Source: Gammaproteobacteria bacterium | GTDB lineage: Bacteria; Pseudomonadota; Gammaproteobacteria; Xanthomonadales; SZUA-5 | Direction: 5' to 3' | Assembly: GCA_030430155.1 (NCBI GenBank) | Contig: JAUIFV010000019.1 | Coordinates: 1 to 41,822 of the forward strand | Length of the DNA: 41,822 bases | Shown here: piece by piece, positions 3-21,251 of the stretch | How positions within the stretch are numbered: position 1 is the stretch's first letter | Layout: every line of letters starts with the position of its first letter | Made by a program: the position numbers and the translations under genes | The notes under the pieces: model-generated | What the model was told of the DNA's origin: nothing | The model's input: only the letters and a program-made list of their open reading frames with translations | Database searches by the model: none

Positions 3-2330
3 ATAACCCGCGATGTTTCCGAGCATGTGGCAACCGAGAGTGCACTGGCACGGAGCCAACAGCGTTTGGACTATGTACTGGAGGAGGCGCAGGTAGGCCA
101 ATGGTGTCTGGATCTGCGTACTCGGGTGGCCACTCGGTCGGCCCATCATGATCGCTGTTTTGGCTATCCGGAGCAGCTTGCGGAGTGGAACTACGACGTC
201 TTTCTCAGCCATGTCCATCCGCTGGATAGGAGCCAGGTGCAGCGCAACGTTGACGCCGTCTGCGCCGGCGGCCAACGCCAGCTCGATCACGAGTTTCGCG
301 TGATTTGGCCAGATGGAAGCGAGCACTGGTTGTGGTCGCGCGGCACGGTGGAGCGTGATGCCAACGGAGAGCCGGAAATGCTCTCCGGCATCTGCGTTGA
401 TATCACCGACCGCAAGCATGCAGAAGCGGCGGCCGAGCTGAACTACGAGCGCTGGAAGCTGGCAAACCGGGACAGCAAGGATGGCCTTTGGGATTGGGAT
501 ATCCGCGCCAGGGAAGTCACCTATTCGGACTTTTGGGCGAGGATGCTGGGTTTTGAACCCGGCGAACTGACCAGCGCAGAAGAGGAATGGAGCGGTCGCG
601 TCCACGCCGACGACGTCGATCACAGTCAGCGCAGTTTGCGTAATGCACTGAAGGGAAAGACCGCGAGCCATACTGTATGCCAACGGCTACGCTGCCGCGA
701 CGGCAGCTGGAAATGGGTGCTCAGTCGCGGCGTGGTTATCGCCCGCGACAGCGCCGGCTACGCTACCCGCATGGTCGGCAGCAACGTCGACATCGACCAG
801 GTTCAGCGCGAGGCCGAGCGTGTCGATCATCTCCGCGAGCGCCTGGAATTGGCGGTGATGGGTTCCGGCTTCGGTGTCTGGGAGCTGGATCTGGCCAGCA
901 ACGAGCTGATCTGGGATCAGCGCATGCACGAGGTCTACGGGTATACCGAAGCGAGCTTTGACGGCAATCCCGAGACTTGGCGAGCCTGCTTGTACGCGCA
1001 AGATCTGGAGATCGTGGACCAACGCTTGCAGGCCTTACTCGATGGCCAGCGGGTCGAATTGTTCGAATTTCGAATCCGCCGAGCGAACGACGGCTGCGAA
1101 CGGCGTATCGAGGCCAATGGCTATCTGCAGCGTGATGCCATGGGTCAGCCGCAGCGGCTGGTGGGAATGAATCGTGATGTCACCGAGCGCTGGCAGATGG
1201 ATCAGCGCCTGCGTCTGCTCGGCTCCAGTCTGGCCAACCTGCAGGAGATGGTGCTGATCGCCGAGGCCGCTCGACCCGACAAGGAGGCGCGGTTCGTCTA
1301 CGCCAACCCGGTCTTTTACTCCCGCACGGGCTATCAGCGGGCGGACCTGGAACAGCTGTCGCCCTTCGCACTGTGCGATCGCGACGAGAACGAATCCGCT
1401 TTGAGCCTGCTCAAACAGGCTCGGCAGCAGGAAACCGCCGCGCGCTGCGACTTGATTGCAAAGACGCGCTCAGGAGACCACTTCTGGGTGGATCTGCAGC
1501 TGGTTCCGATCGGCGAGAGGGACCAGGCGGCCACGCATTGGGTACTGATCGGTCTGGAGATCACCGCGCGCAAGAGCGCCGAAGCACAGATGCGCCTGCT
1601 CAATGCCTCGCTGGAGCGTCGGGTGAAGGAGCGCACCGCCGCCCTGGACATCATCGTCGACGAGTTGCGTACCTTTACCTACTCGGTGTCCCACGATCTG
1701 CACTCGCCACTGCGGGCGATCCTGGGCTGGACCGAAGCGCTGAGTGAGGACTGCAGTCACCTGCTCGACGACACCGGCCGCGCCCACTTGACGCGAATCC
1801 GCCAGGGCGCAAACGAAATGGGCGACTTGATCGATGGCCTGATGCGGCTATCGCGGATCTCCCAGGCCGATCTGGACTGCACTCGCTTCGATCTGGCCCC
1901 TGTGAGCCAGAAGATCTTCGATGGACTGTGCCAGCTGTACACTCATCGGCAGGTTGAACTGCAGCTGCAGTCGCCGATGTGGGTGGAGGCGGACGCCTCG
2001 CTGTTGTACCTGTGCATGACCAATCTGATCGAGAACGCATGGAAGTACACGCAATCGCGCGACCCAGGCCTGATCAGGATCCGCTGTCGTCGCAGCGCGC
2101 GACGCACCGTTGTGGAAGTGACCGACAACGGAATCGGCTTCTCGATGAAGCATGCATCCGACCTTTGGCAGCCGTTCAAACGGATCAATCCCGGCGACGG
2201 CCTGGCGGGTTCGGGAATCGGCCTGGCGGTGGTGGATCGGATCATGCGTCGGCACGGCGGCAGCGTGGAGGCCAGCGCCGAGCCCGGCCAGGGCGCTCGC
2301 TTCCGACTGATCTTTCCACGCCAGCCCTAG
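3..2330 (+). CDS. Soluble multi-PAS sensor histidine kinase (5' end outside window)
   Basis: The reading frame is open to the first base. The codons before the GTG at 27 read ITRDVSEH, a typical end of a PAS/PAC domain, so the gene starts upstream of the window and GTG 27 is not its start. Counting from base 27, four PAS/PAC units follow (roughly 10-135, 145-265, 270-395, 405-525), three of them closing with DITDRK/DVTERW/EITARK-type linkers. A short coiled coil then leads to a HisKA domain with the H-box SVSHDLHSPLRA (His near 555). The HATPase has N box NLIENAWKY, G1 DNGIGF and G2 GSGIGLAVV. No membrane segment is visible, so it is probably a cytosolic sensor that autophosphorylates on the H-box histidine. 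It is followed after 19 bp by a second PAS kinase, so the two are probably one operon. The signal sensed cannot be told from the sequence. Confidence 0.93.
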   Translation: MTRDVSEHVATESALARSQQRLDYVLEEAQVGQWCLDLRTRVATRSAHHDRCFGYPEQLAEWNYDVFLSHVHPLDRSQVQRNVDAVCAGGQRQLDHEFRVIWPDGSEHWLWSRGTVERDANGEPEMLSGICVDITDRKHAEAAAELNYERWKLANRDSKDGLWDWDIRAREVTYSDFWARMLGFEPGELTSAEEEWSGRVHADDVDHSQRSLRNALKGKTASHTVCQRLRCRDGSWKWVLSRGVVIARDSAGYATRMVGSNVDIDQVQREAERVDHLRERLELAVMGSGFGVWELDLASNELIWDQRMHEVYGYTEASFDGNPETWRACLYAQDLEIVDQRLQALLDGQRVELFEFRIRRANDGCERRIEANGYLQRDAMGQPQRLVGMNRDVTERWQMDQRLRLLGSSLANLQEMVLIAEAARPDKEARFVYANPVFYSRTGYQRADLEQLSPFALCDRDENESALSLLKQARQQETAARCDLIAKTRSGDHFWVDLQLVPIGERDQAATHWVLIGLEITARKSAEAQMRLLNASLERRVKERTAALDIIVDELRTFTYSVSHDLHSPLRAILGWTEALSEDCSHLLDDTGRAHLTRIRQGANEMGDLIDGLMRLSRISQADLDCTRFDLAPVSQKIFDGLCQLYTHRQVELQLQSPMWVEADASLLYLCMTNLIENAWKYTQSRDPGLIRIRCRRSARRTVVEVTDNGIGFSMKHASDLWQPFKRINPGDGLAGSGIGLAVVDRIMRRHGGSVEASAEPGQGARFRLIFPRQP

Positions 2331-2349
2331 CGCGGATCGGGGCGTCTAG

Positions 2350-4722
2350 ATGAGATCCAGAACGCTGCGCCTGTTGTTGATCGAAGACAACGAGTCTGAC
2401 GCGGCGCTGCTCGAACGGCACTTGCTACGCGCCGACCTGAAGCTGCATTGCCGGCGCGTCGACAGTCTGGGCGCGCTGGAACAGGCGCTCGCGGCGCAAT
2501 CCTGGGACATGGTGCTGTCGGACTACAACCTGTCGGGATTCGACGCATTGGACGCTCTGCGCACGGTCCGCAAATCCAATGAAGATCTCCCCTTCATCGT
2601 CGTCTCAGGCATTGTCGGAGAGGAGGCGGCGGTCGAGTTGATGCGTTCCGGAGCGCAGGACTACGTCTCCAAGGATCGACTCTCCCGGCTGATTCCGGCA
2701 ATGGAGCGTGAACTCAAAGAGGCCGCCGCGCACCGTCGCCAACGCCGCCTGAGCGCGCGCATCGCCGAGCACGATGAGCGACTGAAGCGGGCGCTGAGCG
2801 CGACCGGCGACGGCGTCTGGGAGCGTAATTTGCGCACGCGGAGCATCGTGCTCTCGGAGCAGTGGAAGACCATGCTCGGCTACGCGCCCAATGAGCTTGA
2901 CGGTGATCTTGGTGCGTGGCTGGAGCTGATCCATCCGGATGACCGCAAGACGGTGGATTCGGATCTCGCCGATCACCGCGCCGCGCGAACCTCGTCCTAC
3001 CGCAGCGAGTACCGGCTACGCTGCAAGGACGGCAGCTGGAAATGGGTCCTGGACCGCGGCGTGGTCATCGCACGGGATGCCCAGGGCGCGGCGCTACGCG
3101 AGATCGGCACCAGTACCGACATCTCCAGGTCCAAGCAGACCGAGGTGCAACTGCGCCAGAGTCACGACGTGCTGCGCAAGTTGGCCAGCCAAGTACCCGG
3201 CATGCTGTACCAGTTTCAGCTGCATCCGGATGGCCGTCGCTCCCTGCCCTTCGTCAGTGAGGCGGTGCACGAGCTGTACGAGCTCACCCCGGAACAGATC
3301 CGGGTGGACGCGACCGCGATTTTCGCCCTGGTGCATCCGGACGATTTGCCTTCATTGAACGCATCCATCGAGCGCTCCGCCGCCACGATGACTCGCTGGA
3401 AGCACGAACACCGCGTGGTGGTGCCCTCCAAAGGCATACGTTGGATGTCCGGAGAGTCGCAGCCGGAACGCCTGCCTGATGGCAGCATCCTGTGGCACGG
3501 TTTCATCCACGACGTCACCGCGCGCAAGAACGCCGACGAGGAACTGCGCTTGCTGCAGGCCTGCGTCAATCAGCTGCATGACACCATCATCATCACCGAT
3601 GCTGAGCCTCTAGGCGATCCTGGCCCGCGCATTGTCTACGTCAACAGCGCCTTCGAGCGGCAGACCGGCTATAGCGCCGCGGAGGCGATTGGCAAGACGC
3701 CGCGCATATTGCAAGGCCCCGGAACCGACGGCAAGACGCTGCGCAGGATAGGCGCGGCGCTGCGGCGTTGGGAGAACACCCGCGCTGAAGTCCTCAACTA
3801 CACCAAGGATGGTGGGCTATTCTGGGCCGAGCTGGACATTGCTCCAGTGGCCGATGACACCGGCTGGTACACCAACTGGATCTCGGTGCAGCGCGACGTG
3901 ACTGAGCGCAAGCGAGCCGACCAGGAGCGCGAGCAGCTGATCGAGCAGTTGGAAACCCGACACGCCGAGCTCAACGCCTACAACCACTGGGTGGCGCACG
4001 ATCTGCGCAACCCGGTCATCGCCATTCACGGCATCGCCGATCTGGCCGAACTGGCGCTGGAGGCGGGTGACTCCAAACGAGCGCTGAAATACATCCAACG
4101 TATTGAAGCGGTTGCCGAGCAGGCGGACAAGCTGATCAAGAGCCTGATGGCCGTGGCCAAACTCGGTCGTTCCGGGTTGAGCTACACCGAGATCTCGGTG
4201 GCCGAGGTGGTGCAGTCGGTGCTTAACGACCTCAGCTACATCGCCAAGGCCAGCCATGCGGAGTTTGAACTGGATCTGCCAGCAGAGCTCCGACTGATCA
4301 GCGATTCGGCTCTGCTGACGGTGATCCTGCGCAATCTGATCAGCAATGCGATCAAGCACCGCCACCCGAACCGGCACCCGGTGGTCAGGATCAGCGCAAG
4401 CCTGACGCGTGATCCCGACGGAATCACCCTAAGCGTTGCCGACAATGGTGTGGGCATCGACCAACATCATCACAGCCGCGTGTTTGGGCTATTCGAGCGC
4501 ATCAATGACGACACCGAAGGTGTCGGCCTGGGTTTGGCGATGGTCGATCGCGCCGCGCGCCTGCTCTATGGACGGACCCACCTGGATCATTCGCAAGTCG
4601 ATGTGGGCAGCCGTTTTTCAGTTTGGCTCCCGCTGGACAAGCCCGCAACCCACGTCCAGGCAAGTGCACAATCGAACGACCCCGAAGAAGGCGATGTCTG
4701 GTCGATCCAGGACCATCGTTAA
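2350..4722 (+). CDS. Hybrid kinase: receiver-PAS-PAS-PAS(LOV-like)-HisKA-HATPase
   Basis: The 790-aa soluble protein begins with a receiver domain (about 5-125, phospho-acceptor Asp in LSDYNL near 57, Lys in VSKD). Three PAS domains follow (about 140-265, 275-395, 400-525). The third resembles LOV photosensors (GKTPRILQGPGTD, then NYTKDG..FW), but the adduct-forming cysteine position of the NCRFLQ motif is Pro, so classical LOV photochemistry is not expected. The kinase core carries HisKA with H-box VAHDLRNPV (His near 550) and an HATPase with N box NLISNAIKH, G1 DNGVGI and G2 GVGLGLAMV. With the receiver at the N terminus, the protein can take a phosphoryl group from another kinase, plausibly the upstream one, and then signal itself. 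The start ATG 2350 lies 19 bp after the previous stop. The stop (4720-4722) touches the conserved promoter block of the next unit. Confidence 0.93.
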   Translation: MRSRTLRLLLIEDNESDAALLERHLLRADLKLHCRRVDSLGALEQALAAQSWDMVLSDYNLSGFDALDALRTVRKSNEDLPFIVVSGIVGEEAAVELMRSGAQDYVSKDRLSRLIPAMERELKEAAAHRRQRRLSARIAEHDERLKRALSATGDGVWERNLRTRSIVLSEQWKTMLGYAPNELDGDLGAWLELIHPDDRKTVDSDLADHRAARTSSYRSEYRLRCKDGSWKWVLDRGVVIARDAQGAALREIGTSTDISRSKQTEVQLRQSHDVLRKLASQVPGMLYQFQLHPDGRRSLPFVSEAVHELYELTPEQIRVDATAIFALVHPDDLPSLNASIERSAATMTRWKHEHRVVVPSKGIRWMSGESQPERLPDGSILWHGFIHDVTARKNADEELRLLQACVNQLHDTIIITDAEPLGDPGPRIVYVNSAFERQTGYSAAEAIGKTPRILQGPGTDGKTLRRIGAALRRWENTRAEVLNYTKDGGLFWAELDIAPVADDTGWYTNWISVQRDVTERKRADQEREQLIEQLETRHAELNAYNHWVAHDLRNPVIAIHGIADLAELALEAGDSKRALKYIQRIEAVAEQADKLIKSLMAVAKLGRSGLSYTEISVAEVVQSVLNDLSYIAKASHAEFELDLPAELRLISDSALLTVILRNLISNAIKHRHPNRHPVVRISASLTRDPDGITLSVADNGVGIDQHHHSRVFGLFERINDDTEGVGLGLAMVDRAARLLYGRTHLDHSQVDVGSRFSVWLPLDKPATHVQASAQSNDPEEGDVWSIQDHR

Positions 4723-4777
4723 TCCGTTACAAACGAAATTTAATAATTCGCTATACATTTTCACTTGTAGTAGTAGA
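4722..4777 (+). promoter_or_regulatory. Shared promoter block, copy 1 (ATCCGTTACAAAC...TGTAGTAG)
   Basis: This AT-rich block begins with ATCCGTTACAAAC and ends with TGTAGTAG. It aligns without gaps over about 56 bp with the block at 7599-7654, with the first 13 bases identical. A possible -35 TTACAA (4727-4732) and -10 TATACA (4752-4757) are 19 bp apart. The block lies about 160-220 bp upstream of the Roadblock-like gene at 4940. That it is a promoter is inferred from its composition, position and conservation. Confidence 0.55.
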
Positions 4778-4939
4778 ATTCACACACGTCAAGGCGGTGC
4801 AGCGACGGCGACGCCGCGGAGACGGAGCACAGTATCGGGCGATGGTTGTTTTCACGCCGTGCTGCGACCGCCGGCTGGCGCCGGGGATCCAAGGGCACAC
4901 GCCCTCAACGGTAGATTCGTTCACAAGGAGCACCAAGAC

Positions 4940-5296
4940 ATGGCCAAGATTTCCCTGGAACCGCTGCGCAGTATGGATGGCTACATGGCCTCGGCGCTGG
5001 TTGATGCCGACAGCGGCATGATGCTCGCCGGCGATGGCACGGCGGTCAATCTCGAGGTCGCCGCAGCCGGCAACACCGAAGTGGTGCGCGCCAAACGCAA
5101 GGTCGCCAATGCGCTCAAGCTCAACGATACGATCGAAGACATCCTGATCAATCTCACCAAGCAGTACCACATCATCCGCCCGCTGGAGACCAATCAGAAG
5201 CTGTTCCTGTACGTGGTCCTGGATCGCGCCAAAGCCAACCTGGCGATGTCCCGACACGACATCCGCAGCTTCGAAAAGAGCATCGATTTCTCCTAG
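4940..5296 (+). CDS. Small Roadblock/LC7-like protein
   Basis: The ATG at 4940 is chosen because AAGGAG sits 9 bases upstream (4925-4930). The same frame is open upstream but overlaps the kinase gene in another frame. The 118-aa product (SLEPLRSMDGYMASALVDA..., then AAAGNTEVVRAKRKVANAL and IEDILINLTKQYHIIRPL) has the size and layout of a single Roadblock/LC7-type domain: a GyvaSaLvD strand, a helix, and a YHiIRPL...lFlYvvLDR strand pair. No signal peptide or membrane segment is seen. Roadblock proteins typically dimerise and regulate or scaffold Ras-like GTPases, and one such GTPase is encoded about 3.8 kb downstream. Acting with that GTPase is inferred from the shared promoter block. The Roadblock assignment is from pattern and length and is less sure than that of the gene at 9273. 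Confidence 0.65.
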   Translation: MAKISLEPLRSMDGYMASALVDADSGMMLAGDGTAVNLEVAAAGNTEVVRAKRKVANALKLNDTIEDILINLTKQYHIIRPLETNQKLFLYVVLDRAKANLAMSRHDIRSFEKSIDFS

Positions 5297-5538: not shown

Positions 5539-6468
5539 ATGCACGAGTTGCGCACCCAGTTCGCCCAAACCGGACTGGCCTTCTCCCCCAAGTTGGTGCC
5601 GATGCTGGAGGAGCACTGCAGCCATCAGACCGAACGCCGTGGCTGCGGTTACACCCAGGCGACCCGCTTCCTGGCCGAGTTCATCAATCGCCCAAGGCTG
5701 GCCGAAACCGCCACCGATCTCGCCCTGCTCGATGACTGGGCGTCGATGATCGACGAGATCGAACACCTGTCCAGACGGCTGCTGGCACATGGATGGATGC
5801 ACGGGTGGAGACGGATCGCCGATGCACCTGCCGAAGCAACGCGCGGTCTGGAGTCCGATGCGCTGTTGCTGCTGATCGGACTGCACCACAAGCTCCAGCA
5901 GCTGGACCAGTTCGAGTTCAGTTTTGAGGCTCGACTGCTGTTCTCGATGATCGTCGATATCCTTTGCGGCTCGCGAATGCGGCTGCCAGAGCTGTCGCCT
6001 ATGGCCGATAAACCGGAGATTGGCAGCTGCTCACAGGCCGAGGAGTTCTTCCTGGAGATCGCCCATGGCAAGATTCGCCGCGGCGGCAGCGTCAACCTGA
6101 TCGTTGATAATCAGAATCAACCGCTGCTGCTGGAGAAGATGAACCTGGGTGAGTCGCATTCGGCGCTGCTGCTGGCTCCTGCGGTGGTCAATCAAGTGGC
6201 CATTCCGGCGGGTGGATTGTTCGCGCTACGCCATGCGCCGTCGGCCGCCGTGGCGCCCCCGACCGGTGTTGGCCTGCGATTGACTATCGACGACATCGAG
6301 GCCGCTCGTTTCCTGCGCCTGACCACCTTGGCGGTGGCACCAAACATCCGTCGCCGGGCATTCTCGGCGCAGATCGATGCCCAGGTGCGATCCAATATGG
6401 TTTCTCCGTTAACCACCACCCTGGATGACCTCCGCGCATCGGCGCAACGGATAGCTCAGAGTGGCTGA
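5539..6468 (+). CDS. Unknown 309-aa protein coupled to the deacetylase-like gene
   Basis: I do not recognise this family. The 309-aa protein has no signal peptide or membrane span. The N-terminal half (1-150) is helical, with many Leu and paired acidic/basic residues (e.g. LALLDDWASMIDEIEHLSRR). The C-terminal half (from about 160) looks more beta/alpha, with short hydrophobic strands (SVNLIVDNQ, SALLLAPAVV, VGLRLTID) and a final helix. The start ATG has a strong AAAGGAG upstream. Its last 8 bases overlap the GTG start of the histone-deacetylase-like gene, which implies translational coupling and a shared function. It could be a partner or substrate adaptor of that enzyme or a signalling adaptor of the island. 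No function is assigned. Confidence 0.8.
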   Translation: MHELRTQFAQTGLAFSPKLVPMLEEHCSHQTERRGCGYTQATRFLAEFINRPRLAETATDLALLDDWASMIDEIEHLSRRLLAHGWMHGWRRIADAPAEATRGLESDALLLLIGLHHKLQQLDQFEFSFEARLLFSMIVDILCGSRMRLPELSPMADKPEIGSCSQAEEFFLEIAHGKIRRGGSVNLIVDNQNQPLLLEKMNLGESHSALLLAPAVVNQVAIPAGGLFALRHAPSAAVAPPTGVGLRLTIDDIEAARFLRLTTLAVAPNIRRRAFSAQIDAQVRSNMVSPLTTTLDDLRASAQRIAQSG

Positions 6469-7348
6469 AGTGTCACCGATGACCACCTATTTCGCGCCGA
6501 GCTACGCGCCGGTCGAAACCGAGCGCTTTGCACGTTTGGGTGTGGCGGCCGAGCACATGCGCCGGCTCGACCTGGTCAAGCTGGTTGCGCCGCCTGCGCT
6601 GGATACCGGCTTGCTCTCCGGCCTGCATAGTCCAACCTATCTGCGCGATTTCGCCTCGGGCACTGAGCCGTTGGCCTCCAGCCTTGGCATTCGCTGGTCG
6701 ATCCCGGTGCGAGATGCCTGCTACGCCATGCTGGCGGGGCAGTTGGCGGCAGTCGACCACGCCCTGCGCCATCGCGTCTGCCTGAATCTGGCCTGTGGTT
6801 TTCATCATGCGGTTGCTGAACGCGGCTCGGCCTACTGCGCGTTGAACGGACTGGCCCTGATCGCTCATGTGCGTCCCGAACTGCGCGTGTTCGTGATCGA
6901 TTGCGATGAGCACGGCGGCAACGGCACCGAGAGCTTCACCCAGACGCTGCCCAATCTGTATCAGGCCTCCATCTTCGGCACCCGGTTCGGCTGTCTTGGA
7001 GGAGAGCGCTCATGGGCATACCACGTTCAAGGGGCTCAGGCTTTTCAGCAATACATGAGTGCGCTGGATGAGGTGCGTGCGCGGGTAGCGGCCCTCAAAC
7101 CGGATCTGATTCTTTATCAGGCCGGTGTGGACTGCCATCAGGATGACCCCAAGAGCCGCGCCAGGATCAGCGCCGCGCAGATGTACGAGCGCGATCTGCA
7201 CGTGTTCAACACAGCGATGGAACTGGGCATCCCGCTGGTTTTCGTGGTTGCCGGCGGCTATCAGGCCCCGGAAATACTGGCCGAACTCAACGCAAGCACG
7301 GTGCGTGCCGCGTTGGCTGTCTATGCCAACGCCTGTTCGTCGGCCTAG
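6461..7348 (+). CDS. Histone deacetylase-family zinc hydrolase
   Basis: The product (295 aa from GTG 6461; ATG 6479 is an alternative start) belongs to the arginase/deacetylase fold family that covers HDACs, acetoin-utilisation proteins and acetylpolyamine amidohydrolases. The His dyad is in GFHHA (about 113-117). The first zinc ligands are in VIDCDEHGGNGTE (about 144-156), where the usual HHG reads HGG but the Asp and His of DxH are kept. The third zinc Asp is in GVDCHQDDP (about 222), and the catalytic Tyr is in VAGGYQ. The active site therefore looks intact. The expected reaction is zinc-dependent amide (deacetylase) hydrolysis, with the substrate unknown. It is embedded in a signalling island and overlaps the unknown gene at 5539, so a role in reversible acetylation of an island protein is possible but not shown. 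Its stop TAG abuts a dispersed repeat. Confidence 0.88.
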   Translation: MAEVSPMTTYFAPSYAPVETERFARLGVAAEHMRRLDLVKLVAPPALDTGLLSGLHSPTYLRDFASGTEPLASSLGIRWSIPVRDACYAMLAGQLAAVDHALRHRVCLNLACGFHHAVAERGSAYCALNGLALIAHVRPELRVFVIDCDEHGGNGTESFTQTLPNLYQASIFGTRFGCLGGERSWAYHVQGAQAFQQYMSALDEVRARVAALKPDLILYQAGVDCHQDDPKSRARISAAQMYERDLHVFNTAMELGIPLVFVVAGGYQAPEILAELNASTVRAALAVYANACSSA

Positions 7349-7430
7349 CCCGAATTATTCATGAACCTTCTACTGCGGCTTCCGCAGACGCGCCGAGGCG
7401 CGGCTTGCTCCATCCGATCGACTTGACGTA
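7346..7430. repeat. Dispersed TAGCCCG-ATTATTCATGAAC repeat, partial copy
   Basis: From the stop codon of the deacetylase-like gene the sequence matches, over about 80 bp and with substitutions, the reverse complement of the right half of the element at 24763-24943. Both share TAGCCCGAATTATTCATG, then CCTTCTACTGCGGCTTCCGC, then GGCGCGGCTT(G/A)CTCCAT. The remainder of the gap to 7598 shows no gene. A divergent relative may lie near 29096-29130. Confidence 0.6.
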
Positions 7431-7598
7431 CTTAGCGGGCTGGCTGCGGCATTGCGCCTACGGGAGCGGTCGCGCCAGGAGAATGGGGGGTCCGAACACG
7501 ACTGCAGAGTGTCCGCACCGCTGCACGGGCGTACGCCCGATTGGCCCCCATATGATCGCAAGAATTGGCCCGTGTCGCGCCCATCTTGATGACCCACG

Positions 7599-7654
7599 AT
7601 CCGTTACAAACTCATTTTAATGATTTGATACATCTATTCATTTCCTGTAGTAGA
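7599..7654 (+). promoter_or_regulatory. Shared promoter block, copy 2
   Basis: This block aligns without gaps with 4722-4777. ATCCGTTACAAAC is identical, TTTAAT and a TGTAGTAG end are kept, and roughly seven in ten positions match overall. A possible -35 TTACAA (7604-7609) and -10 GATACA (7627-7632) are 17 bp apart. The block ends 9 bp before the ATG at 7663, so a start point there would leave a very short leader. It probably drives the 7663-9701 trio. Confidence 0.6.
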
Positions 7655-7662
7655 CTGCCGCA

Positions 7663-8703
7663 ATGGACAAACACTCCTACTCAGTGACGACGGTGGGTCT
7701 GAACGCCCACGACGAAACCATCGTCAGATCCGTGCTCAATCTGATTGAGGGAAGCACGCGAGACAAATGGGAGTACACGGAGAGTTTTCAGGCCGATCTG
7801 GTGTTGTGTGACCCGGAGGCTGCCCTGACCCGTATCGCCATCAAGCAGTTCCAGGAGACCGGCCGACCCGTCTGCGTGGCTGTGCTGAAGTCCGGCCAGA
7901 CCCGCAGCACCCTGACCCACTTCATCCACTTCCCGGTGCGTGCCAGCGAAATCATCGGCGTGCTGGACAACGCGGCGGACGAGATCGAACACCCGCTGGG
8001 TAAGGTTGACTCCAGCTTCGAGGAATCCCCGCAGATTCATGGTGAACTGCCGGTTCCGGACGAACTACAGGACAAGCGGACCATCTCCGATCTATTGATG
8101 GCCTTCGCGCGTCGGCGACGGGACGAAAAGGCCGCCTGGCAGATCAATCTGGACGGCAAGTGCATCTATGTCTTCGAACCGGAAAGGACCTTTGCCTCGT
8201 CCATCGAGCTGAACGCGCAGCGCCTGAACGATCTGGCATCAGCTACCAAAGCGCCAGCGCTGCGCCGGGTGGGCGGCATTGTGGCCAAAGGCTTGCGCAA
8301 GGAATTGGCACCACGCCCGATCGATGAGTTGCTTTGGAACCTGGGACTGAATCAGGAACAGCGTGCGTTGTTGCCGGCTCTGGCCAACGCCAAACAGATT
8401 CGTTTGCAGCGGTGGCCCGACTTCGGCCGACTGGGCGCACGCAAGTCGCATTTTGCTTTCGCCGCGCTGCTCACTCGCACACCGCAAGCGCTCGAGGCTA
8501 TTCCGGCTCTGACCGGCCAACCCCAATCCGAGGTCTACGCCTTTCTCAACGCCTGCGCATTGTGCAACCTGCTTGAATACACCACTGAGCACGATACCGG
8601 CGGAACCGACAGCGGCCACATGATCAAAGTCCAGCCCAGCCGATGGTCTGGCTTGGTGCGAATCATGCGTTCGGCGTTGGGTATGGAAACCCGGGCGGCG
8701 TAG
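7663..8703 (+). CDS. Pseudo-receiver/helical adaptor upstream of the GTPase
   Basis: The 346-aa protein has an N-terminal third (about 5-115) that looks like a degenerate response-regulator receiver: alternating strands and helices, a DLVLCDPE strand end in the place of the phospho-Asp strand, and FPV where receivers have KPF, so the key Lys is missing. The middle (about 135-225) contains TISDLLMAFARRRRDEKAAWQ and a compact beta segment. The C-terminal part (about 225-345) is helical and winged-helix-like, with PIDELLWNLGL and FLNACALCNLLEY. No signal peptide is present. Its stop TAG directly abuts the ATG of the GTPase gene. In actinobacterial conservons a small helical protein (DUF742) accompanies the Roadblock and GTPase proteins. 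This gene has a comparable place, but no family membership is claimed. Confidence 0.8.
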   Translation: MDKHSYSVTTVGLNAHDETIVRSVLNLIEGSTRDKWEYTESFQADLVLCDPEAALTRIAIKQFQETGRPVCVAVLKSGQTRSTLTHFIHFPVRASEIIGVLDNAADEIEHPLGKVDSSFEESPQIHGELPVPDELQDKRTISDLLMAFARRRRDEKAAWQINLDGKCIYVFEPERTFASSIELNAQRLNDLASATKAPALRRVGGIVAKGLRKELAPRPIDELLWNLGLNQEQRALLPALANAKQIRLQRWPDFGRLGARKSHFAFAALLTRTPQALEAIPALTGQPQSEVYAFLNACALCNLLEYTTEHDTGGTDSGHMIKVQPSRWSGLVRIMRSALGMETRAA

Positions 8704-9276
8704 ATGGCTGTCGAGCACAAGCTCATCTTTGCCGGCACCATGGGTGCCGGAAAGACCACCGCCATCGCCGCCATCAGCGAGATCGCTCCGGTCTCAACCG
8801 AAGTTCAGAATACCGACACTCAAACTCACGCCAAGGCAACCACGACGGCTGCGCTGGATTATGGCGAAGTGACCCTGGCCAATGGCGACAAGCTGCGACT
8901 GTACGGAACGCCGGGACAGGAGCGCTTCGATTTCATGTGGAAGATCCTCGGTGCGGGCGCCTTGGGCGTGGTGATACTGATCGACAACAGCCGAACCGAC
9001 CCCTTGGATGACCTGCGCCGCTATCTAGCATCCTTCGCCGATGTGGTGCGCGGCTACCGGGCGGTCGTTGGCATCGGCCATACCGAAACCCACCCACAGC
9101 CGGACCTGAATCAGTTTCACCTACTCGCCGATTCAATGAACCTGCAGGTACCGATGTTTTCGGTCGATGTGCGCCGCCGAGACGACGTCCTGCTGCTGTT
9201 GGACGTGCTCTTCCATCAAATCGAACAGGATGTGCAGATGGCTGACAGAGCGAACGATCTGGAGACGGCTCAATGA
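8704..9276 (+). CDS. Ras-like small GTPase (MglA/COG2229-type)
   Basis: The 190-aa soluble GTPase has a P-loop GTMGAGKTT (residues 11-19). Thr residues in KATTTAALDYGEV suit switch I. The G3 motif is GTPGQERF in switch II, where the Asp of DTPGQ is Gly, as is common in the COG2229 group. The usual NKxD specificity motif is not evident and is replaced near GIGHTET. It starts directly after the stop of the 7663 gene and overlaps the Roadblock gene by 4 bp (ATGA), so the three are co-translated. Proteins of this type cycle between GTP and GDP states, with Roadblock partners as regulators, as in MglA/MglB polarity control and the Streptomyces conservons. It probably acts as the switch of the island. 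Residues 170-190 form an acidic tail. Confidence 0.9.
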   Translation: MAVEHKLIFAGTMGAGKTTAIAAISEIAPVSTEVQNTDTQTHAKATTTAALDYGEVTLANGDKLRLYGTPGQERFDFMWKILGAGALGVVILIDNSRTDPLDDLRRYLASFADVVRGYRAVVGIGHTETHPQPDLNQFHLLADSMNLQVPMFSVDVRRRDDVLLLLDVLFHQIEQDVQMADRANDLETAQ

Positions 9277-9701
9277 GCTATGCGGCAGACCCTTTTGGCA
9301 ATACCGAACGGCTGATGTGCCTGAAGCAGCTGGCGCAGCTGATCGAGGCCACTCCGGAGATTCGCGGCGCCTTGGTTTCGACCATTGATGGATTTGAAGT
9401 TGCCGCGCAGCTACCGGCGGAAATAGGAGCCAGCAAACTGTCGGCCATGGCCAGTTCACAGCTGGCTTTGGCTGAGGCCCTGTGTGCTGAAACTCGAGTC
9501 AACAGTTGCCGCAACATCGTCGTCGAAGCAGATGGCGGAAACATTCTGGTGATGGACATCCCCAACCGCCGTCTGCGGCTGCTGCTCACCGTGGTCAGTT
9601 CCACCGACACCACGCTGGGCAAACTGCTGTGGAATATTCGCGAGTGTGCCGACGCCATTGGCGAAAAGCTCAATCTCAGCGTGCGTAGCGCCCTGGCTTG
9701 A
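9273..9701 (+). CDS. Roadblock/LC7 protein, GTPase partner
   Basis: The 142-aa product matches the Roadblock/LC7 (MglB-like) fold. Helix CLKQLAQLIEATPEIRGALVSTIDGFEVAAQLP leads into the first strands, with the characteristic vsTiDGFevA pattern. A long helix SKLSAMASSQLALAEALC and the strand pair RNIVVEADGGNILVMDI / LRLLLTVVSS follow. The ATG overlaps the GTPase stop (ATGA, 4 bp). Roadblock dimers bind small GTPases as GAP-like or scaffold proteins, and gene fusion-like spacing supports a direct pair here. Together with the smaller protein at 4940, the island encodes two Roadblock-type proteins. The stop codon lies in the first of two GGCTTGATCAAC copies (9695-9706 and 9710-9721), and the next gene is convergent 30 bp away. 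Confidence 0.88.
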   Translation: MSYAADPFGNTERLMCLKQLAQLIEATPEIRGALVSTIDGFEVAAQLPAEIGASKLSAMASSQLALAEALCAETRVNSCRNIVVEADGGNILVMDIPNRRLRLLLTVVSSTDTTLGKLLWNIRECADAIGEKLNLSVRSALA

Positions 9702-9731
9702 TCAACTCGGGCTTGATCAACGTGTGCCGGA

Positions 9732-10181
9732 TCATTGCGGCCTGAACAGCTCGGAGCGCGGCTCTATCCAACGCTGGTAGAGGTTCAGCACCAGCAGCTT
9801 CAGCGGTTTGAATCCCAGCGGCTTGACCAGGTAGTCACGCGCACCCAAAGCCAGCGCCTGATCCCGTTCCGCACTGGAATCGGACGAAGTGAAGACCACG
9901 AAGGGCACTTTGGCGGTTAGCCCGAACTCGTGCGCTTTGGCGAGCACGTCCATTCCATGCATACGCGGCAAGCGTAAATCCAGCAGAACCATGGATAGAT
10001 GGTGTTCGAACTTCTCCAGTGCGGCCATCTGGATCGCGTGCAGCGCGTCCGAACCGTTCTCTGCGCACGCCACCGGCACTTCGATCGGAAGCGAGGCTAT
10101 GGCCAGCTCCAGCAGTTCCATTTGATTGGGATCGTCCTCCACAGCAAGGATAGAGGCGGCGATCCTGGGTCTAGACTGCAT
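9732..10181 (-). CDS. Single-domain response regulator (CheY-like)
   Basis: The 149-aa product consists of one receiver domain. The acidic pair is in ILAVEDDPNQ, the phospho-acceptor Asp in MVLLDLRLP, Ser/Thr in FTSSD, and the conserved Lys in LVKPLG. There is no output domain, only a short tail ending in RSELFRPQ. ATG 10181 is preferred over TTG 10202 because GGGAG lies 8 bases upstream of it. It is the last gene of the minus-strand run, 14 bp after the 1026-aa kinase, and is probably phosphorylated by that kinase. It would pass the signal by protein contact rather than DNA binding. It converges with the Roadblock gene. Confidence 0.92.
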   Translation of the reverse strand: MQSRPRIAASILAVEDDPNQMELLELAIASLPIEVPVACAENGSDALHAIQMAALEKFEHHLSMVLLDLRLPRMHGMDVLAKAHEFGLTAKVPFVVFTSSDSSAERDQALALGARDYLVKPLGFKPLKLLVLNLYQRWIEPRSELFRPQ

Positions 10182-10195
10182 GGATCCAGCTCCCG

Positions 10196-13100
10196 TTAGC
10201 AAAGACGTTCTTGAACCAGTGTATCCGCGTTGGAACGAACCGCGTCTGCACGCGGCAGCGAAATCGAAATTGTCGTGCCCTGATCCAGGCCGTCTGAGCT
10301 CGCCCAGACTTTGCCACCGTGCATCGCCACCACACGCCGCGCCAGCGCCAGTCCGACGCCAGATCCCTCCATTGCAGGGTCGATGCGTTCGAACAGCTCG
10401 AAGACCTGCTCTAGAAGCGGCGGGTCAATGCCTATGCCGTGATCGGTGATGATCAGCGTGACCTCCGTTGCCGATTCCGTTCCGCTGATCACCACCGGGG
10501 CACTGCCGGGCGGTGAAAACTTCAGCGCGTTGCCAATCACGTTGACCAACACCGACTGCATCCGCAGCACATCGCAATCGAATTCCAGTTCCGGAGAGGC
10601 CAACTCGACCCGAACCCCGGAATGCTCGGCCAAACCGGCAAGCAACTCCAGGGTTGGCTGCACCAACTCCAGAATGGGCAGTCGGCGGATCACCAACTCG
10701 GCGCGCTCCAGACGCGACAACTCCAGCATCTGCGCGAGCAGCTGCCACATTCGATCGGTGACGCCGATGCTGCGCTCGATGCGCTCGCGCACCCGACTCA
10801 GCAATCCCTGCTCCGCCAACTCGTCGGCCAGATCCAGCTGACCACGCAAACCCAATACGGCACCCTTCAGGTCATGCGACAAAGCGAAATTGACGCTTTC
10901 CAACTCGGTGATCTGGTGTTCAAGGCGCAGTATCAGTCGGCGTTGCTCCTCGCCCTGTCGATGCCGCGAGGAGATGTCGACGACAACACCCTCCCACAGG
11001 GTAGATCCCCCTTCATGAGGCCGCGGACGAGCACACAATTGCAGGTGCCGGAACGCTTCTCGGCGATCGCTGGTCAACCCGAACTCACATTCCAGGGGCA
11101 CCATCCGGCGCGCGGACTCCCGCATCCGACTCTCAAAACTCATCGCATCCGCCGCCGACATCAGATGCAGCAAGGGTGTCAGGCTCAAGGCGATATCGCG
11201 CCGACTGATTTCGGTGAGGCGCTCGAAGCCGGCCGAGACATAGCCCATGCAGGCCTCCCCGTTGGAGCGCTGCAGCAGCTGGAAGATGAACCCGTTGGGC
11301 AGATTGTTGGCGATGCGCTGCAGCAGTTGTACGCGCTCGCGCAGACCGCGCTCAGCGTGGACCCGCTCGCTGGTTTCGATCAACAGGCCGTCCACGCTCG
11401 CGCCGTGGTCGACGTCGGCACCGCGCGCGAAGATGGAATAGTGGCGCTGCGTAGCGCCGTCGCTCAGCGTGAACTCGTACTCCACCAGATCAAGTCCACG
11501 GGCGGCCTGGCGCAGGCGCTGATCAATCGCCACGGCAGTTTCGCTATCCAGTCCAGGAAACAGCAGCTCGGAAGCGCTGCTCCCGCTGCTGCGCAGATGC
11601 GGGCAAAGCTGCCGCAATCGGTCATTTGCAAAGACCAGACCAACTCGTCCCTGTGCATCAAAACGCAATTGAAAGCCGCCGCCGGTCGGCAGCAAGTCCG
11701 CCAATGCCAGCAGATGGCGGTGGTGCTGGTCATGAGCCAACCGCGCGCCGCGCTGCGGCTGAAGGTCCAAGGTCACCGCATGGACCAACTGGCGCCCGTC
11801 GGGGTTCTGCACCAGCACCCCCCGCATCAGACTCCAGCGCAGCGCCTTGCGCTCGTCGTAGCGCGCAAACTCCAGCTCGAATCCGGACCCTCGACCTTGC
11901 GCCTGGGTGATCGCGGCGTGCACACGCTGCGCCTCTTCCGCTGGCATGGCCAGCCGCTTGCCACCGACCAAGGCCAATTGCTCGAAGGGAAAACCATGCA
12001 GCTGCTCGAAGCCATCCCCGTGCAGTTGATGGCCTATGAGTCGGTCACCGCGCAACTCACAGGACCAGGCGTAGCCCTGTGGCGGAGACTGCGGTTTGGT
12101 ATCGGGTGGATAGTCAGACGCCGATGCGGCGTCAATGATCGTACCGTGCTGCAGCGCGGATGCCGTATCGGCCCGGCCGGACTGCTCGCCCACGGTCGCC
12201 GCCGCATGCGCTGCGGTCGGTGCAGGACCCACATCCGCGCCGGCAACAGGGCTTGGCGCCAGAGCCGCATCGGTGGCGGTTGCATGCTCGAGGCTACGGG
12301 TAAGCACCAGCAGCCGATCCAGCTCACCGTCTTCGCGACGAATCGGTCGGACGGTCAGCTCGCTGTGACAGAGACGCTCATCGCTGCCCACGCGCAAGCG
12401 CATGACCGCCCTGGTGGTCGCGCCGCGCAGGGCCGCGGCGAGCAATCCGGCGAAGACCGAACGGTCGTCGGGGTAGATCGCGTCGACCAGTTGCGGCACG
12501 GATGCCAATGCCTGCTCGGCGCCCAGCAGCAGCCTGCCCGCTTGGTTGACCTGCAGCGTTGCGCCATCCAGATCGTGCACAGTCACCGCTTCGGCCATCA
12601 GATCCATGCTGCGGTGAAACACCGGATGTCGAATCAGCTCGCTGGCGCCGAGCACGTCCACTGCCGGCCGGTCAAAACTGAGCTCGACGATGCTGCTATT
12701 GGCCAGACCGCAGATCCTGAATTTGCCCAGCTTGGGTATCTGTACCTGCAGTGCAGACGGCACTCCGCGCTGTTGAAAACAGTTGACCATGAACGTATGC
12801 AGGCTGCGCGCAGCCGACGGAAGCAGCTCGACCAGCAGGGGTTTGGCCTTCAGCAACAGCCCCCCGGGACGGTTGAGCAGGGAAAGCGACGCACCGATGA
12901 CCTGCCCCTGGCGGTTGCAGGTCAGCGCTTGTGGCAATTCCGCCGTTGCTCCCTGCAAGAGCACGTCCAGCCGAGGGTGCACACGCAGCAGCGATAGCTT
13001 GTCGTCCAGAACAAGACTAGTTTGCTCGCCGTGCCCTTCCGATTCGGTCTTGTACAGGATCGCAACCTGATGCCAGCTGCGCTCGATCTGGTCCAGCGCC

Positions 13101-13276
13101 TTGCCCTGAAAGCTTGCTTCGCTGACCCCCATCTGCTCGCACAGGCCGCTGCTGATGGCGTGGATGCGCTTTTCACCATCAACCACGATGAGCGCGTCTT
13201 CGGTCTCGATGCGACTCACCCGCTGTACCCTGCCGGTTCGCGGCGAGCCACCGTGTGTTCCCAGGCCCTCGTTCAT
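10196..13276 (-). CDS. Large soluble multi-PAS histidine kinase
   Basis: The 1026-aa protein has no membrane span. An N-terminal PAS-like domain (about 20-85, EDALIVVDGEKRIHAISSGL) is followed by a non-PAS stretch to about 200. Further PAS domains lie at about 215-310, 400-510, 520-640 and 650-770, separated by an Ala/Pro-rich linker (about 325-395). The kinase core has H-box NFALSHDLKGAV (His near 800), N box NVIGNALKF, G1 DHGIGI and G2 GSGVGLALA. ATG 13276 overlaps by 4 bp (ATGA) the stop of a 38-aa ORF. The adjacent single-domain receiver is its likely partner. A long open frame on the opposite strand (10622-12997) is an antisense shadow of this gene. The many PAS domains suggest integration of several cytosolic cues, with ligands unknown. 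Confidence 0.92.
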   Translation of the reverse strand: MNEGLGTHGGSPRTGRVQRVSRIETEDALIVVDGEKRIHAISSGLCEQMGVSEASFQGKALDQIERSWHQVAILYKTESEGHGEQTSLVLDDKLSLLRVHPRLDVLLQGATAELPQALTCNRQGQVIGASLSLLNRPGGLLLKAKPLLVELLPSAARSLHTFMVNCFQQRGVPSALQVQIPKLGKFRICGLANSSIVELSFDRPAVDVLGASELIRHPVFHRSMDLMAEAVTVHDLDGATLQVNQAGRLLLGAEQALASVPQLVDAIYPDDRSVFAGLLAAALRGATTRAVMRLRVGSDERLCHSELTVRPIRREDGELDRLLVLTRSLEHATATDAALAPSPVAGADVGPAPTAAHAAATVGEQSGRADTASALQHGTIIDAASASDYPPDTKPQSPPQGYAWSCELRGDRLIGHQLHGDGFEQLHGFPFEQLALVGGKRLAMPAEEAQRVHAAITQAQGRGSGFELEFARYDERKALRWSLMRGVLVQNPDGRQLVHAVTLDLQPQRGARLAHDQHHRHLLALADLLPTGGGFQLRFDAQGRVGLVFANDRLRQLCPHLRSSGSSASELLFPGLDSETAVAIDQRLRQAARGLDLVEYEFTLSDGATQRHYSIFARGADVDHGASVDGLLIETSERVHAERGLRERVQLLQRIANNLPNGFIFQLLQRSNGEACMGYVSAGFERLTEISRRDIALSLTPLLHLMSAADAMSFESRMRESARRMVPLECEFGLTSDRREAFRHLQLCARPRPHEGGSTLWEGVVVDISSRHRQGEEQRRLILRLEHQITELESVNFALSHDLKGAVLGLRGQLDLADELAEQGLLSRVRERIERSIGVTDRMWQLLAQMLELSRLERAELVIRRLPILELVQPTLELLAGLAEHSGVRVELASPELEFDCDVLRMQSVLVNVIGNALKFSPPGSAPVVISGTESATEVTLIITDHGIGIDPPLLEQVFELFERIDPAMEGSGVGLALARRVVAMHGGKVWASSDGLDQGTTISISLPRADAVRSNADTLVQERLC

Positions 13277-13389
13277 CCCGACAGACGCGTCTGCATCGAA
13301 GCTGGCGCCGAGCTTGGGTCAGATACTTCGCCCATCGAGCGCAGCTCCCACAGTATCGGGTGATGCGCAGTAGCGGCGATTCGTTTCAT
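13273..13389 (-). CDS. Possible 38-aa ORF coupled to the kinase
   Basis: In the 150-bp gap upstream of the large kinase, an ATG at 13389 is preceded by CCGGAGCG at suitable spacing. It opens a 38-codon frame (MKRIAATAHHPILWELRSMG...) whose TGA overlaps the kinase ATG as ATGA. The neighbouring coiled-coil and GGDEF-EAL genes are coupled in the same way, so this may be a real small gene or a leader that couples translation. No family is recognised. Confidence 0.4.
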   Translation of the reverse strand: MKRIAATAHHPILWELRSMGEVSDPSSAPASMQTRLSG

Positions 13390-13426
13390 CGGCGCTCCGG
13401 TGACGAGGCAGTACGCATCGGCGCAC

Positions 13427-13885
13427 TCAGCCAACCGGCCCCGAATCGCCCGCGTCGCTGCTGGCCCCTACGCCACCACGTCGACAGCATCGGTGATCGG
13501 TCGTTGATCGTTTTCCCCGGCTCCCGGTTGCCGCTGCGGAGACCCGGAATTCAGACTCGGTCGGCTGGGCTTTCCAGGTGCTGGCCAGAGCCTCACGCGC
13601 CTGTTCCAGTTCGGCCTGCAGATCCATGCGGTGATCGCGCTCATTGCTGAGTATGGATTCCAGGGCAAGCAGCTTCTGCGCCCGCCGGTCGGCGATGCCG
13701 CGCAGGCGCTCGAGCTCGGCCCGAGTGTCGGCAAGCATCGACTGGGCGCGAGAGACTTCAGTTTGCAAAGAGGCCAGGCGCGCAGCACCGAGCAAATCGT
13801 CCAGCGCCGTGCCGTCCATCCAGTTGCTGCTGGTCGAGGTCTTCGCCGCACATTCTGGGATCTGATGGCGGTCAGCCTCAGCCAT
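13427..13885 (-). CDS. Small coiled-coil protein in the GGDEF-EAL operon
   Basis: The 152-aa protein starts at ATG 13885, which overlaps the end of the GGDEF-EAL gene by 8 bp and so implies translational coupling. Residues about 28-108 form a heptad-rich coiled coil (LQTEVSRAQSMLADTRAELE, RRAQKLLALESIL, MDLQAELEQAREALAS). The N terminus is polar, and the C terminus is low-complexity, basic then Gly/Ser-rich (GKRSTTDHRCCRRGG...). No enzymatic motif, signal peptide or membrane span is seen. Coiled-coil proteins of this kind are often scaffolds or dimerisation partners. Here it may hold together the GGDEF-EAL protein and the downstream kinase. That is inference from gene order only. Confidence 0.8.
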   Translation of the reverse strand: MAEADRHQIPECAAKTSTSSNWMDGTALDDLLGAARLASLQTEVSRAQSMLADTRAELERLRGIADRRAQKLLALESILSNERDHRMDLQAELEQAREALASTWKAQPTESEFRVSAAATGSRGKRSTTDHRCCRRGGVGASSDAGDSGPVG

Positions 13886-15647
13886 GGCTGCGCTTCTCCA
13901 CGCACGAGCGATCCAGCCATGCCGGCAAATCAGCCGGCGGCATTGGCTTGGCGAACAGATAGCCTTGAAGATTCTGGCATCCCAGCCGAACCAATGTGGC
14001 TCTTTGGCGCTCGCTCTCAATGCCCTCGGCGGTGGTCGAGATGCCCAGCGCATTGGCCAGCGACAGGATCGAGCGCACCAACGCCAGGCTGCGCGGATCG
14101 CGCAGGGAGCGATGTACGAAGTACTTGTCGATCTTCAGCCCGCAAATGGGCAGATCGTAGACGTGTCGCAACGATGAGTAGCCGGTTCCAAAGTCATCCA
14201 GAACCAGCGGTGTGCCGCTATGCGCCAGATTTCGCAGCACGCCTTTGACGTGTTCGGAATCTGAGAGCAGTGCGGTTTCGGTGATTTCCACACGCAATGC
14301 CTGCGGTTCCAGACCGTACTGCTCTCGCGCGGCATCCAGCATCTCCACGATCGCTTCGTTGCGCAGAGTGACGGCCGAGAGGTTGATGTTGACCGGCATT
14401 CCGCGCAGCCGGGGATCGGCCTGGCGCAAATAGGCCAGCCAGCGGGCCGCTTCTTCAATCACCAAGCGGTCCAGCTCGGGAGCCAGGCCCAATTCTTCAG
14501 ACACCGGGATGAACTGAGACGGCTGGCAGGCACCGAGAAATGTGTCCGGCCAGCGCACCAGCGCTTCCATCGTTACCAGGGTTCCGGTTCGGCCATCGAC
14601 GATGGGCTGAATGTGGATCTCCAGCTCACTGTCGCGCAGCGCTCTTTGCAGCGCGCTGAACACCACCAATCGCGACCGGGTCTCTGCCTGCAGCTGCGGT
14701 TCGAACAGGGTGATTCGGTTGCGCCCGTCGCCCTTAGCCCTGAACAGTGCAGAATCAGCATTGTTGAGCACCTCATCGGCGCTGGTGGCCGGATCGGAGA
14801 CTCGCACTACGCCCACGCTAGCGGTGAAGTAGACTCGCCGCTCCTGCAGATCATAGGGGCCGGTCATCACGCTCAGGATCTGATCCAGGCGCTTGCGCAG
14901 CTGCTGCTCCACACCGCTGTCGGCCACCAGCAGCGCGAACTCGTCCTCGCCCATTCTTGCGGCGAACTCGTCGGGGTCCAACTGCTGGCGTAAGCGCTCT
15001 GCCATCTCCGCCAGCAGCTGATCGCCGACCTGATGCCCGTGGGTGTCGTTGACCAGCCGAAACCGGTCCAGATCGATGCGCGCCACGGCATAGGCCCCTG
15101 CGCCCTCGTCAGCCGCCTCGCTGCGTAGCCGGAGCCGCTGCACAAAGGCCGCTCGATTGGGCAATCCGGTCAGCTCATCAACGAATGCCAGACGACCGAG
15201 CTGCTGTTCGCCGCGTACCTGTTGCGTGCAGTCGTGCGCACAGAGCAGGCGCATGCCTGACCCGTCGCCCTGCCAGTTGCCGACACTGGCCAGACATGCG
15301 CTCCAACCGCCGGCGCGGCGCCGCAACCTGAGCAGGGCCGGCTCCGGTTCATCAGCACACGCCGATGCGGATGAAGACAGCAACTGATTGGCAGCGTTGC
15401 CCAAACTGCTCAGGCCGGCGCCCTGCAGCTCGCCGGGGGCATAGCCCAACATGCGATGGAAGGCGCTGTTGGCGGCCACGATGCGGTTGTCGGCATCGGC
15501 CAGTAGCGCGGCGATCGGCAAACTGTCGACCAGCCTTACAGCGGACTCTGGAGATTTGGAAGCACGCAGCTCGAGCTTGCTCTCGGCTGCAGCCTCATCA
15601 ACCGCGGCGCGTACCGAAACGACACTCTCTGGCGGCCCAAGGTGCAT
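13878..15647 (-). CDS. PAS-GGDEF-EAL protein, probable c-di-GMP phosphodiesterase
   Basis: The start ATG 15647 is supported by AGGGA upstream (TTG 15689 is an alternative), giving 589 aa. A PAS domain (about 40-110) precedes a GGDEF domain whose signature reads GEDEF (near 232), so cyclase activity is doubtful, although DLDRFRLVNDTHGHQVGD is kept. The EAL domain retains its catalytic set: EALVRW (about 361), NINLS, EITET, DDFGTGYSS, KIDKYF, AEGIE and QGYLF. It should hydrolyse c-di-GMP, with the degenerate GGDEF perhaps acting as a GTP-sensing module as in some dual-domain enzymes. No transmembrane helix is seen. It is the first gene of a minus-strand operon (coiled-coil, kinase, receiver). 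A copy of the island's promoter motif lies 54-73 bp upstream. Confidence 0.93.
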   Translation of the reverse strand: MHLGPPESVVSVRAAVDEAAAESKLELRASKSPESAVRLVDSLPIAALLADADNRIVAANSAFHRMLGYAPGELQGAGLSSLGNAANQLLSSSASACADEPEPALLRLRRRAGGWSACLASVGNWQGDGSGMRLLCAHDCTQQVRGEQQLGRLAFVDELTGLPNRAAFVQRLRLRSEAADEGAGAYAVARIDLDRFRLVNDTHGHQVGDQLLAEMAERLRQQLDPDEFAARMGEDEFALLVADSGVEQQLRKRLDQILSVMTGPYDLQERRVYFTASVGVVRVSDPATSADEVLNNADSALFRAKGDGRNRITLFEPQLQAETRSRLVVFSALQRALRDSELEIHIQPIVDGRTGTLVTMEALVRWPDTFLGACQPSQFIPVSEELGLAPELDRLVIEEAARWLAYLRQADPRLRGMPVNINLSAVTLRNEAIVEMLDAAREQYGLEPQALRVEITETALLSDSEHVKGVLRNLAHSGTPLVLDDFGTGYSSLRHVYDLPICGLKIDKYFVHRSLRDPRSLALVRSILSLANALGISTTAEGIESERQRATLVRLGCQNLQGYLFAKPMPPADLPAWLDRSCVEKRSHG

Positions 15648-15700
15648 GTGTTCCCTGCCTGTGCAAAGGCGTTGACTTGGCGGCCCCAAGGTTCAATATA

Positions 15701-21115: not shown

Positions 21116-21251
21116 GGATGGTTTCCGAGCGACTGGGGCAGGCGACAAAGTGGCGCCCGTGACTTGCTTGATGGGGGCGCGACGATACCATGCAAGGGTA
21201 TAGGGAGTTTATGCACTGTCAGCGGTGTCCGACCACACACCCTCCAGGCCA

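Follow-up and report, generated by a model that had tools for sequence, protein, structure and literature searches.

A small GTPase gene, a Roadblock gene and a gene whose 346-aa product matches no Pfam or NCBIfam family follow one another closely in a stretch of 41,822 nucleotides of gammaproteobacterial DNA (the window, meaning the whole stretch analysed). This raises the question of which class of switch they form, how it receives its signal and what it acts on. The gene of the 346-aa input/adaptor protein occupies positions 7663-8703 of the plus strand. Its TAG stop (8701-8703) abuts the ATG, at 8704, of the gene for a 190-aa small GTPase of the MglA family, Group 3 type (8704-9276, plus strand). 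The TGA stop of the GTPase gene (9274-9276) is overlapped by the ATG (9273-9275) of the gene for a 142-aa Roadblock/LC7, MglB-like protein (9273-9701, plus strand), an overlap of 4 bases. These abutting and overlapping stops and starts bear out the full coupling proposed in a sequence-only reading, which had called the set a conservon-like module, reminiscent also of MglA/MglB, with the 346-aa protein as a departure from known sets. Scans of positions 7300-9900 for promoters and terminators found none.

The description as a three-gene module holds for the coupled set but is incomplete: it overlooks a further Roadblock-like gene on the plus strand (4940-5296). This gene, here called ROB2, encodes a 118-aa protein with no Pfam match; it lies 2.4 kb upstream, with two other genes in between, and within four genes of the Roadblock gene. 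Between the two Roadblock genes (window 5539-7348) are genes for a 309-aa protein without a family and a protein with a histone-deacetylase domain, an order kept in the related locus L021 of a Lysobacterales MAG. The window is also rich in signalling genes (27-4722, 9732-15689, 21225-24293), encoding two multi-PAS histidine kinases, a single-domain response regulator, a further PAS kinase and a propeller-GGDEF protein, as well as a 603-aa protein that, by reading only, appears to be of GGDEF/EAL type. An RCC1-repeat protein of 867 aa is encoded on the minus strand at 39193-41796.

The GTPase carries the G1 motif GTMGAGKTT and the G3 motif GTPGQERF, while its G4 region lacks NKxD, the aligned stretch reading VVGIGHTET, and its G5 is VDVR; the motif alignment agrees in G1, G3 and the missing NKxD with what had been read from the letters. 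Matches to small-GTPase models are weak, the top Pfam match being ATP_bind_1 (E 2.4e-12), and the profile of the GTPase family matches Rab GTPases and the solved MglA of Myxococcus xanthus (E about 4e-8). The protein is 84% identical to the GTPase of L021 and 44% identical to that of the Snodgrassella alvi locus L070, which, together with L086 and L094, represents Snodgrassella among the relatives found. The 142-aa protein matches Robl_LC7 (E 1.6e-8).

In 2014, Wuichet and Sogaard-Andersen defined Group 3 MglA systems as sets of an unknown protein with a receiver-like N-terminus and a winged-helix C-terminus, MglA, and one or two MglB proteins (PMC4316618). The window module is a Group 3 MglA-type system and shows most features of membership. 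Its GTPase is a single-domain Ras-like protein of 190 aa (the class allows 240 aa or less), a Roadblock/LC7 gene is coupled to it, as one or two are in this class, and the neighbouring protein has a receiver-like N-terminus in the predicted model. In addition, the Lys of NKxD is missing from G4, and VDVR is a variant of the DAR expected at G5. The likeness to MglA/MglB is upheld by the coupled Ras-like GTPase and Roadblock protein, and the 346-aa protein turns out to be a typical part of Group 3 systems rather than a departure from known sets. In Snodgrassella, mglA has been assigned to Group 3, and an orphan mglB has been linked to type IV pilus-dependent motility (PMC11112851).

The name of conservon, on the other hand, does not stand, because a search of the whole genome for a DUF742 protein (CvnC, PF05331) gave no match and the coupled set contains no kinase. 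No CvnA-type sensor kinase is found among the coupled genes, and the kinases encoded nearby (27-2330, 2350-4722, 10196-13276) are multi-PAS proteins outside the set. It is very improbable that a proteobacterium acquired the module as an actinobacterial-type conservon, even if such an origin would fit the shared Roadblock and GTPase genes, the deviating G4, the proximity of histidine kinases and the match of the Roadblock profile to CvnB5 (3leq_A, E 4.4e-14). Apart from the missing parts, the receiver/winged-helix protein is no conservon component, and the 80 fetched relatives are proteobacterial according to their record titles.

The structure of the 346-aa protein was predicted with AlphaFold2 from an alignment of 42 homologues (mean pLDDT 85). 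The model comprises a pseudo-receiver domain (aa 3-116; plus strand 7669-8010, placed by structural alignment of the model and residue counts), a small alpha/beta middle domain (aa about 133-215), a winged-helix-like region (aa about 236-312; plus strand 8368-8598) and a C-terminal helix (aa 329-338). In VIA-align comparisons of the predicted model, residues 3-116 match receiver domains, with Z 12.0 to 6swb_A and an rmsd of 2.7 over 106 residues. The model therefore confirms the receiver fold that had been suspected at the N-terminus. The loss of the receiver Lys is equally plain: Phe90 occupies its place, next to a Pro91 that never varies in the family. Nor is there an acidic pair after beta-1, where residue 14 is Asn, so that among the features of a phosphorylatable receiver (acidic pair, acceptor Asp, Lys) only Asp50 on beta-3 is present. 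Of the 42 aligned homologues, 32 retain Asp50 and 33 have a Lys before Pro91.

Conservation of the gene set was followed in 80 fetched GTPase loci, which are the best 80 of 501 confirmed relatives and hence a selected rather than a random sample. Of these 80 loci, 78 contain a homologue of the 346-aa protein and 74 a Roadblock gene. The two loci lacking the homologue have their GTPase within 200 bases of a contig end, and the gene order is therefore not a matter of chance; the neighbourhood search bore out the linkage of 346-aa homologues to GTPase genes.

Two subtypes can be told apart by their additional partner, which is either ROB2 or a protein of roughly 216 aa, named f2, encoded between the GTPase and the Roadblock protein; one f2 member matches Robl_LC7 weakly. 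Over all fetched loci, the receiver Lys is retained in 64 of 65 homologues from f2-type loci versus 0 of 17 from ROB2-type loci. Some of the 17 represent the same locus fetched from each of two collections, and the f2-type loci come mainly from Methylococcaceae, so that independent events are fewer than these counts. Most f2-type relatives retain both Asp and Lys, and many ROB2-type relatives are without the Asp as well. In other words, loss of the receiver Lys tracks the presence of the ROB2 partner, an observation that goes beyond the 2014 paper. Around the GTPase, f2-type loci (L032 6104-11767 and similar) carry additional conserved genes, namely for an upstream TPR-like protein and the roughly 216-aa Roadblock-like protein, and downstream a PAS protein and a protein of the phosphonate-binding family. 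The TPR-like gene is not claimed as FimV, for which E is only 0.03.

ROB2 itself is 52-87% identical to its relatives, and its profile matches a Roadblock structure at a borderline level (E 0.26). In most other ROB2-type loci it follows the Roadblock gene, while in the window and in L021 it stands upstream. ROB2 belongs to the GTPase/Roadblock set, which again extends what the 2014 paper described.

Since Asp50 is kept, some phosphorylation of the window receiver is still conceivable, and the module might be an ordinary phosphorelay output in which a neighbouring kinase phosphorylates this residue. Kinase genes do flank the module on both sides, and the Asp and Lys pair of most f2-type relatives would suit such a role. 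With Phe at the Lys position, no acidic pair after beta-1 and the Asp lost too in many ROB2-type relatives, however, this reading has a low probability.

The C-terminal part of the 346-aa protein, when predicted alone, reaches a pLDDT of 88.5 and a pTM of 0.82. Winged-helix proteins dominate its structural matches, but the best Z of 7.4 is near the usual background, and therefore only a general winged-helix arrangement can be claimed. Kinship to SEA/GATOR1 chains, which fill the top VIA rows at Z 7.4, is not claimed, this value being typical where there is no clear relative. Because type IV pili are controlled by PATAN regulators, the middle and C-terminal regions were considered as a possible PATAN domain; among the Pfam matches of the 42 members, no such family occurs. 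In the homologue alignment W251 and P252 of the winged-helix-like region are invariant, and the protein ends in a conserved helix with the family consensus GLLxRILxxL.

For Group 3 systems, a transcriptional role with DNA binding by the winged helix was suggested in 2014 (PMC4316618). Applied here, the 346-aa protein would be a DNA-binding regulator whose transcriptional output is tuned by the GTPase/Roadblock pair, and both the resemblance of the C-terminal region to winged-helix regulators and the mean net charge of +2.5 in the winged-helix region are in keeping with that proposal. The predicted recognition helix is nevertheless poor in basic residues, with no Lys or Arg in 22 of the 42 members and a mean of 0.5 per 13 residues, and the top structural matches, at the modest Z given above, include winged helices of protein complexes without known DNA binding. 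The invariant WP motif and the conserved C-terminal helix look like a protein contact. A transcriptional output through DNA binding appears rather unlikely.

Further evidence on the input comes from paralogous loci. The same genome contains a second Group 3-like locus, L117 (G000 contig 155, 20000-29000), whose genes at 1774-5141 encode a lone 124-aa ORF resembling the receiver part (as judged by eye), a Roadblock protein, a ROB2 paralogue, a counterpart of the 346-aa protein divided between two frames at about 3813-3828, a GTPase, and a protein with BLUF, a blue-light sensor. As this counterpart lies in a single frame in the relative L119, the split may mark a pseudogene or an assembly error. 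BLUF genes adjoin paralogous GTPase genes or lie near them in five genomes (G000, G001, G006, G032 and G351). In L121 (5380-6243), a single protein joins BLUF directly to the winged-helix part, without a receiver, and in L137 (1483-2261) a BLUF gene and a stand-alone 114-aa winged-helix gene are adjacent and overlap; GTPase and Roadblock genes follow in both loci. The winged-helix region is the part common to the BLUF-fused and stand-alone versions, and in a search of seven sequences with the C-terminal profile L121 and L137 matched with E 3e-8 and 1e-9, while a 305-aa protein from L120 gave no match (E 0.12). When 30 BLUF loci were inspected together with flanks of 1.5 kb, 27 showed no linkage to a GTPase; linkage therefore marks a subset of them. 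Among the titles listed in a literature search there was no study of a BLUF-MglA link, although one may exist.

As BLUF replaces the receiver in some paralogous loci, the N-terminus of the adaptor family looks like an exchangeable input module. Under this proposal, which we rate as a serious possibility somewhat short of even, one subtype would take its input through a receiver that has both Asp and Lys, the ROB2 subtype, to which the window module belongs, through a pseudo-receiver no longer capable of phosphorylation, and a third through a BLUF domain fused or adjacent to the winged helix. If it is true, Ras-like GTPases of the Group 3 class are directly light-controlled in some Lysobacterales.

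For the window itself, the account considered slightly more probable than not is that of a Group 3 MglA-type switch with the 346-aa protein as input/adaptor, the Roadblock protein and ROB2 as regulators, and type IV pili or polarity as the output. The N-terminal receiver-fold domain would sense or dock an upstream partner without phosphorylation, and the winged-helix-like part with the C-terminal helix would contact the GTPase/Roadblock pair rather than DNA. The GTPase would be the switch, presumably cycling with GTP, and the Roadblock protein, together with ROB2, would control that state of its bound nucleotide in the manner of MglB with MglA, possibly through GAP activity. The signal would in this way pass from the input domain to the winged-helix adaptor and on to the GTPase with its Roadblock regulators.

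Judging from MglA biology and a modest co-occurrence with PilB, the most likely output would be surface behaviour that depends on type IV pili, or cell polarity. PilB scores over the cut-off in 38 of 42 GTPase-positive Gammaproteobacteria versus 125 of 190 (Fisher p 0.0013, ignoring phylogeny). This link to pili is indirect, as PilB is widespread in the class, and the neighbourhood of the module showed no pilus gene. In the organism's own genome two PilT-family genes score over the cut-off, whereas the PilB-like ATPases all fall below the family cut-off, one of them beginning at a contig end.

The module is real, conserved and of a class known since 2014, a class whose signal input and output the survey of that year left unexplained. 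Beyond that survey, the present analysis adds the BLUF genes beside GTPases in paralogous loci to the membership of ROB2 and the Lys loss that tracks it. Receiver degeneration alongside ROB2 and the exchange of receiver for BLUF point to the winged-helix part and the C-terminal helix as the likely minimal coupling unit. This evidence of input exchange makes the control of such switches testable, and the BLUF loci offer a candidate test system in which a bacterial small GTPase might be switched by light.

Among known systems, the Synechocystis PixD-PixE pair and the PATAN response regulators, in which a BLUF photoreceptor and a receiver-containing protein control type IV pilus motility (PMC7690835), are comparable solely to the BLUF-linked paralogues and not to the window locus. 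The 346-aa family differs from them in having no PATAN match in Pfam, and the review account of PixD-PixE describes no small GTPase (PMC7690835). The Group 1 system of M. xanthus, MglA/MglB with RomR and FrzS, likewise combines a small GTPase, a Roadblock regulator and a receiver or pseudo-receiver partner, whereas in the window G4 differs and the receiver partner is encoded in the same operon and bears a winged-helix-like part. Actinobacterial conservons (Cvn, Group 2 MglA) also combine a Roadblock protein with a small GTPase whose G4 deviates, and their operons likewise include a signalling partner; unlike them, the coupled set here is free of kinases, the genome is free of DUF742 proteins, and the adaptor is built of receiver and winged-helix-like parts. 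From the Group 3 description the window departs in its G5, which is DVR and not DAR, and in a second Roadblock-like gene displaced upstream by 2.4 kb, and from most fetched relatives in a receiver without Lys. In its protein with a receiver-like N-terminus and a possible winged helix, MglA-family GTPase, Roadblock protein and G4 without Lys, it nonetheless resembles Group 3, a class found in beta- and gamma-proteobacteria.
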